From the NCBI GenBank assembly GCA_031260125.1, contig JAIRKM010000019.1, forward strand, positions 1 to 36,550: a stretch of DNA of 36,550 nt, read 5' to 3'. Shown here piece after piece: positions 2,670 through 24,725 of this stretch. This stretch comes from Helicobacteraceae bacterium. GTDB lineage: Bacteria > Campylobacterota > Campylobacteria > Campylobacterales > SZUA-545. Numbering within the stretch: position 1 is the stretch's first letter; the number at the start of each line of letters is the position of its first letter. The position numbers and the translations under genes were made by a program. The notes below the pieces were generated by a model. That model had not been told where the DNA came from, ran no database searches, and saw only the letters and a list, made by a program, of their open reading frames with translations.

Positions 2670-5182
<2,513 letters not shown>

Positions 5183-23749: not shown

Positions 23750-24609
23750 TTAGCGGTAGATGACTACGCTAAATCCGTCGCCTATTGGCGTCGGATTGAT
23801 TTTGTATTCTTTACCAAAATCGGCGATCGCCGATTTTACGCCGCCATACTCGGGGTTGAAGTAATCGTGAATCAATATCGCTCCGCCCTCGACCAACTTT
23901 GGATAGAAGAATCTTAATCCAGCCAAAATCGGATCGTATAGATCGAAGTCGAGATTCACAAAGCAAAAACGATCGTCGATTCCTTGCGCGGTCTGCGGAA
24001 AAAATCCCTTTTTTATGACCGCTTTATTCGGATAGGGTAACTTGGCTTTTACAATATCTTCAGAGGTCATTTCAAAGTAGCTGATTTTATCCGCAAATTC
24101 GGAAAATCCGCTGATATTGTCTTTCGCCGCCTCTTTTTTGTCAAAACCCGTAAAGGTATCGAAAAGATATAGCGTTTTGTCAGGGAAAACGCGGTTGATC
24201 TCTCTTGCAAAATCGCCTTGAAAAACGCCGCCTTCGGCTACGGAACCTTCGGTCTTTCTTTCTTTGAGCATTTCGCCCAATTTTTCAAGAAAAACTATCC
24301 TTGCGCGAACGGGAACCGTTACGTATTCAATGTTGATTTTGTATCTATCTACGCCGAGATCAATGAGTTGTTGGGGAACGGACTCTATGCCCGTTAAGGT
24401 TGCGATTATCACAACGTCGTAATTATGATCGCTTATCGCTTTCGGAGGGTATATTTTCTTGCTATAAGTATTTGCCCCCCCCCATTAACATCTGTCCAAC
24501 GTTTGGGATCGTTGTCTAGGAAGCCGATTACATCGTATTTTTGCTCTACGCTCGACATAATCGACTTTGCGGTTCCACCAGAACCGAAAATAAACGCTTT
24601 TTGCTTCAT
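23750..24609 (-). CDS. Phase-variable TylF-type sugar O-methyltransferase, out of frame at a 9-G tract
   Basis: One gene split by a frameshift at a homopolymer. From the ATG at 24609, with AAGGAG 6 nt upstream, it encodes an N-terminal Rossmann-like domain (KAFIFGSGGTAKSIM, then VIGFLDNDPKRW). At the G-tract the frame shifts, and the reading frame ends at a TAA at 24435-24433 after 58 codons. In the next frame it continues without a stop from the tract to 23750 (YPPKAI, then DVVIIATLTGIE, a TylF/MycF-like domain with VAEGGVFQGDFAREI and HDYFNPEYGGVKSAI). Seven or ten G would join both parts into a ~286-aa protein. The family O-methylates sugars, and capsule methyltransferases in Campylobacter are controlled this way. 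The present sequence is OFF; a GTG at 24412 could give a truncated protein. Confidence 0.85.
24475..24483 (-). repeat. Poly-G tract (9 G) acting as a predicted phase-variation switch
   Basis: Nine consecutive C on the plus strand, read as G on the coding strand, about 43 codons into the methyltransferase gene. Slipped-strand changes to 7 or 10 restore the full frame; 8 or 9 do not. It is the only such tract inside a gene in the window. Confidence 0.85.
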
Positions 24610-24626
24610 TGAAGCTCCTTTCTCGC

Positions 24627-24725
24627 CGCGGCGGTGTAAAATTTTACAAGCTACCCGCCGATTTTACTAGAAAACCAATTACGCGGCGGTGCAAAATTTC
24701 ACAAACCACCCGCCGATCTTATTGG
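24627..24725. repeat. Two direct copies of a ~44-bp repeat, 55-bp period
   Basis: Copies start at 24627 and 24682, each beginning CGCGGCGGTG and sharing most bases over ~42 positions, to CCCGCCGATTTTA and CCCGCCGATCTTA. Within each copy GGCGG and CCGCC are inverted around an AT core (TGTAAAATTTTACA in the first, a perfect palindrome). On the minus strand the cores read GTAAAAT, like a -10 box, and lie just upstream of the phase-variable gene. They may be promoter or operator elements, or copies of a dispersed palindromic repeat. Confidence 0.7.

Follow-up and report, generated by a model that had tools for sequence, protein, structure and literature searches.

A poly-G tract as a probable translational switch in a two-domain methyltransferase gene of a Helicobacteraceae bacterium

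Results

Two reading frames meet at a nine-G tract

The window (the whole stretch of DNA analysed, 36,550 nucleotides) is contig 57 (JAIRKM010000019.1) of a 1.64 Mb, 87-contig Campylobacterota MAG (GCA_031260125.1), whose nearest named relatives are the Helicobacteraceae MAGs Iy174_bin57 and Kf353_bin5. From their names and from general knowledge, we take both relatives to be termite-gut MAGs. On the minus strand of the window, a short frame and a longer methyltransferase frame meet at an uninterrupted run of Gs (Table 1). The frame from ATG 24609 begins MKQKAFIF and ends VNGGGQILIARKYTLRKR; up to the tract it reads MKQKAFIFGSGGTAKSIMSSVEQKYDVIGFLDNDPKRWTDVN-GGG, and a short tail then leads to the stop at 24435-24433. 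From the tract, the downstream frame runs without a stop as far as 23750, 2 bases out of phase with the upstream frame. Translation with 7 G gives a single 285-aa protein and with 10 G a protein of 286 aa with one extra Gly, so a change of length alone, judged from the sequence, converts a truncated product to a full-length one. The tract and the frame arithmetic given in the original prediction were borne out, and the strong ribosome-binding site that it described was found. AGGAG-type sites also precede most copies of the gene in the bacterial family.

Table 1. Features of the methyltransferase locus, in window coordinates.
Feature	Position	Strand	Basis
Poly-G tract, 9 G on coding strand, putative switch	24475..24483	(-)	Counted in sequence; position matches that of the tract in every homolog of the bacterial family
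Upstream frame, 58 codons at 9 G	24433..24609	(-)	Translation from ATG 24609
First 42 codons of upstream frame, start of PglD_N-like Rossmann domain	24484-24609	(-)	Translation; Pfam
Downstream frame, remainder of PglD_N-like domain and TylF-type methyltransferase	23750..24474	(-)	Translation; Pfam
PglD_N (PF17836), residues 5-67 of joined protein, split by tract	24407..24597	(-)	Pfam E 7e-5, just over gathering score; predicted Rossmann fold
TylF methyltransferase domain (PF05711)	23795..24307	(-)	Pfam; fold neighbours SpnH, MycF, NovP
Ribosome-binding site AAGGAG, 5 nt before ATG	24615..24620	(-)	Read from sequence

The tract is exceptional in the window. With the contig end left out, G/C runs of lengths 4 to 8 number 92, 15, 3, 0 and 0, and there is one run of 9, whereas under a first-order model the expected number of runs this long or longer is 0.05. 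The tract also stands at the same place in every examined homolog of the bacterial family. Its length exceeds the in-frame homopolymer of at least 7-8 G that is taken to mark a poly-G contingency locus; the PhasomeIt threshold is at least 7 G/C (PMC6321876).

The neighbouring genes are typA and ECF-type transporter genes, and the sole glycan context is a glycosyltransferase gene on the opposite strand, at a distance of about 1.6 kb. Two near-identical, partly self-complementary 30-bp repeats (24630-24659 and 24685-24714 on the plus strand, 55 bp apart) lie in the interval between typA and the start of the methyltransferase gene; with up to 3 mismatches allowed, they occur nowhere else in the genome. 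The transcript folds well (z -3.5).

The joined protein has two predicted Rossmann-type domains

Pfam recognised two domains in the joined protein: PglD_N at residues 5-67, which only marginally passes its cut-off (23.7 bits against 23.4), and TylF at residues 101-271 (45.6 bits against 23). The PglD_N score of the homologs L052 and L053 falls just below the cut-off, and L055, L060 and L030 are unmatched. A search of the joined protein against NCBIfam gave no family match. An AlphaFold model of the joined protein shows two Rossmann-type domains (mean pLDDT 78.7), as had been expected of it, with lower confidence near the tract loop and at residues 152-180.

The original prediction divided the protein into an upstream Rossmann-like part and a downstream TylF part. 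Both domains were found, but the division between them does not fall at the tract. The tract encodes residues 43-45, in the loop that follows the second strand of the PglD_N-like domain, after 'FLDNDPKRW', and since these residues lie within 5-67, it is the first domain that is interrupted and not the domain junction. The view that the two-domain fusion is an unfamiliar one did not stand either: the fusion is widespread. An Oscillospiraceae MAG has it as a single open frame, and it is present in numerous further Campylobacterales genomes, where most copies carry a tract too.

The best neighbours among solved structures in a Foldseek search were SpnH (E 4e-11), MycF, NovP and CalS11, all of them sugar O-methyltransferases, and sequence matches among solved structures also point to the TylF/MycF/NovP/SpnH family. 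In the alignment, the acidic positions D220 and D222 and the HDY motif are conserved. By analogy with these enzymes, the protein made in the ON state is most likely a SAM-dependent methyltransferase that would methylate a sugar hydroxyl in a surface glycan. A surface-glycan sugar is suggested as the target by the fold neighbours together with the phase-variable methyltransferases of C. jejuni and H. canadensis; Cj1325 of C. jejuni is listed as an N-methyltransferase, which calls for caution in assuming O-methylation.

Tract position is conserved and tract length varies among close relatives

A second copy of the gene lies on contig 63 of the same genome. It is 66% identical and has G8 at the corresponding codon, and its assembled sequence is likewise out of frame. 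All copies found in the sister genomes (G005, G006, G007 and G008) likewise have a G tract at this position, and with the paralog the lengths run from G8 to G19 where the assembly passes through the tract. Both copies in G008 are broken into two pieces at the tract, and L031 enters the tract and then continues as a corrupted version of the L028 sequence, which looks like an error. Because contig ends and error-like sequence of this kind often occur at long G tracts, the assembled lengths of long tracts are unreliable.

Both sides of the tract are conserved at the protein level. For the upstream 42 codons, a comparison of the window with L031 (93% identical) gave dN 0.041 and dS 0.414; for the downstream 236 codons, a comparison with L028 gave dN 0.018 and dS 0.106. 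Both halves are thus under purifying selection, with dN/dS about 0.1-0.2, and neither frame is decaying. Nine Gs in all relatives together with a decaying downstream frame, the pattern named beforehand as contrary to switching, was not seen. Among relatives, then, the tract position is conserved, its length varies and both flanking frames are maintained.

The genes that flank the family copies differ from genome to genome (window, L021, L028/L031 and L029): typA here, and an MFS transporter gene, a sugar dehydratase gene and others elsewhere. The varying neighbours suggest that the methyltransferase gene may move as a single-gene cassette.

Tracts occur at three sites of the enzyme across Campylobacterales

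At E <= 1e-25, homologs turned up in 12 of the 399 genomes covered by an order-wide search, and a search centred on one of those genomes gave 17 of 118. Outside the bacterial family of the window, 24 of 28 loci either contain a G tract of at least 8 within the gene or break off at a contig end there; the exceptions are L059, L061 (cut by a contig end), L073 (six Gs) and L077. Most carry the tract at site A, the loop after strand 2, as in the window. Five loci outside the bacterial family carry it at site B, the turn before strand 2, and three at site C, the GG turn that precedes the [HD]DY motif. Seven loci have an assembled length that is in frame, and across the family the assembled lengths fall in all three phases. 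A tract is also present in the single-contig genome G420.

A quick tree of the methyltransferase part requires at least 4 changes of site A on well-supported branches, which is no firm count, as it omits two site-C rows and the segments taken from L076 and L080 were identical. As read from these sequences, the tree fits repeated gain, loss or relocation of tract sites. The tract-free comparison outside Campylobacterota is one sequence, L030 from the Oscillospiraceae MAG, which encodes the same two-domain protein (44% identical) in one open frame with no tract. Because most of the enzyme family in this order carries a tract, the tract looks maintained by selection. We consider it an evenly balanced question whether phase variation is close to being the rule for a PglD_N-TylF methyltransferase subfamily of Campylobacterales, with tracts at three alternative glycine-tolerant sites.

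The clade is rich in poly-G tracts

In the genome as a whole, a first-order model expects 11 G/C runs of at least 8 and about 2.4 of at least 9, and 32 and 26 were observed; many runs of at least 12 were seen where 0.03 were expected. Several tracts lie near the starts of genes, the types of which were recognised by eye from their translations: TonB-type receptors, RCC1-repeat-like and GLUG-like lipoproteins, a nucleotide-sugar epimerase, and glycosyl- and methyltransferases. Nine loci of the genome (L001, L003, L005, L007, L013, L022, L023, L025 and L026), where genes for RCC1-repeat-like and GLUG-like lipoproteins begin, share a repeated leader with C9-C16, which is ISDLVKK-like on the G strand and FLTRSLIGLVSSVLF-like on the C strand. 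This lipoprotein family seems to share one switch cassette.

Genomes of the genera g1 and g4 contain 26-60 runs of at least 9, and those of the other five genera of the bacterial family 0-1. The MutS1 mismatch-binding domain was found in 0 of 10 g1/g4 genomes and in 3 of 5 tract-poor genomes, the latter being incomplete assemblies. The tract-rich, MutS1-less pattern fits a loss of mismatch repair, with few independent lineages to compare.

The window itself opens, at positions 1-90, with 64 Cs, a brief interruption and 20 more Cs, and other contigs of the clade end in similar C/G runs. This contig end is either another poly-G tract or an assembly artefact of one. We considered whether poly-G contig ends are an artefact of two-colour sequencing and rejected it, since the tract-poor relatives, with hundreds of contigs each, have 0-1 G/C runs of at least 9. 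One possible source study, unconfirmed as the source, used HiSeq instruments (PMC9137090). Both observations make it more likely that the contig ends are real long tracts that break the assembly.

Discussion

A probable contingency locus

The conserved position and variable length of the tract, the purifying selection on both frames and the tract-rich genome all support phase variation through a slipping G tract, as originally predicted, and we hold it very probable that the locus is a translational phase-variation (contingency) locus. The number of Gs would change through slipped-strand mispairing as the DNA is replicated. With 7, 10 or 13 G, one class modulo 3 in the sequence as it stands, the full two-domain methyltransferase would be made; with 9 G, the sequence predicts a stop about 13 codons past the tract and a 58-residue fragment. 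Since the tract encodes glycine and, judged from the alignment and the model, lies in a loop of variable length, the ON protein should accommodate varying numbers of glycines. Members of one clone would in that case vary in surface methylation, with possible effects on phage adsorption or contact with the host. Against switching stands the single tract length in the window.

That the gene is a broken one in the course of being lost, with the tract a chance frameshift, might be thought from the out-of-frame consensus, and a clearly decayed copy does exist in a relative: in L032 of Kf353_bin5 (3001-3078), the first 26 codons are joined to later sequence. Decay of the window gene, however, is disfavoured by the low dN/dS of both halves; there is no further frame damage, and every copy in the bacterial family, like those of many other genera, shows a tract at this place. 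We regard this explanation as very improbable. Long G runs can also slip in transcription. Ribosomal frameshifting or transcriptional slippage might thus make some full-length protein at any tract length, with the tract setting the amount, and this would suit assembled lengths that occur in all three phases with under half in frame. We think it improbable, although somewhat less so than gene loss: no other frameshift signal was noticed in a non-systematic look, the copies vary in length as expected for mutation, and changes in G-tract length are documented in related bacteria from reads and host passage (PMC3025981, PMC2823697).

A different question is whether the gene is OFF in this genome, as the original prediction had it. 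The consensus of 9 G is indeed out of frame, but the state is insecure, because it depends on one assembly consensus and because the sequence just beyond the tract is odd. The 14 bases 3' of the tract are CAAATACTTATAGC, where a 95%-identical relative has CGAAACC.CTTTGGC; the window is thus one base shorter with several mismatches, while the remaining sequence differs by 3.5%. The relative's version would put 9 G in frame, and post-tract sequence in relatives is visibly error-prone, as in L031 compared with L028. The gene could therefore be ON here, the nine-G reading or the adjoining sequence being an assembly or sequencing error in a locus that may still be variable. The stretch varies among other family members as well, so true divergence is possible, and the window sequence further 3' is clean; we consider an ON state possible but rather unlikely.

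Most work on poly-G phase variation concerns pathogens, Campylobacter and Helicobacter among them. The mechanism and phase-variable methyltransferase genes in this order are already known; the apparent novelty lies in how large the repertoire is in one group of insect-gut relatives and in the recurrence of tracts within a single enzyme family. The poly-G device is here deployed on a large scale in one apparently insect-gut-associated clade, next to sister genera that are nearly tract-free, some of them with MutS1. This is a natural contrast for asking what selects such switches, be it phages, other bacteria or an insect host, which has no adaptive immunity; it also bears on whether the loss of mismatch repair precedes the build-up of tracts. 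If the three sites of the methyltransferase are independent gains, selection would have repeatedly made this one activity switchable, and if the subfamily is switched almost as a rule, the rule would include gut symbionts with no detectable MutS1 and a large poly-G repertoire that are not known pathogens. An enzyme family with repeated tract sites is a concrete target for study.

Comparison with known systems

Within the library searched, neither phase variation in termite Campylobacterota nor macrocin methyltransferases in Campylobacter were the subject of any paper that we found. The closest described parallels are poly-G tracts inside phase-variable methyltransferase genes, which we liken to the window gene by description and not by sequence. 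Cj1325 of Campylobacter jejuni is a poly-G contingency locus with G8-11, the lengths of which change on host passage (PMC3025981), and it is grouped with flagella genes (PMC8355987); it differs in being a pathogen gene that is listed as an acetimidino-N-methyltransferase. HCAN_0647 and HCAN_0671 of Helicobacter canadensis are methyltransferase genes with G9-14 tracts for which ranges of length are seen in reads, and HCAN_0671 is listed as frame-shifted (PMC2823697).

By fold, by sequence and by its Pfam match, the window protein is closest to TylF, MycF, NovP and SpnH, from which it differs in sharing about 20% identity with them. These enzymes act in the biosynthesis of antibiotics or related natural products and, to our knowledge, have no N-terminal PglD_N-like domain. 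That domain resembles the N-terminus of PglD, with a match to PF17836 just over the gathering score, but is fused here to a methyltransferase, whereas in PglD it is fused to an acetyltransferase.
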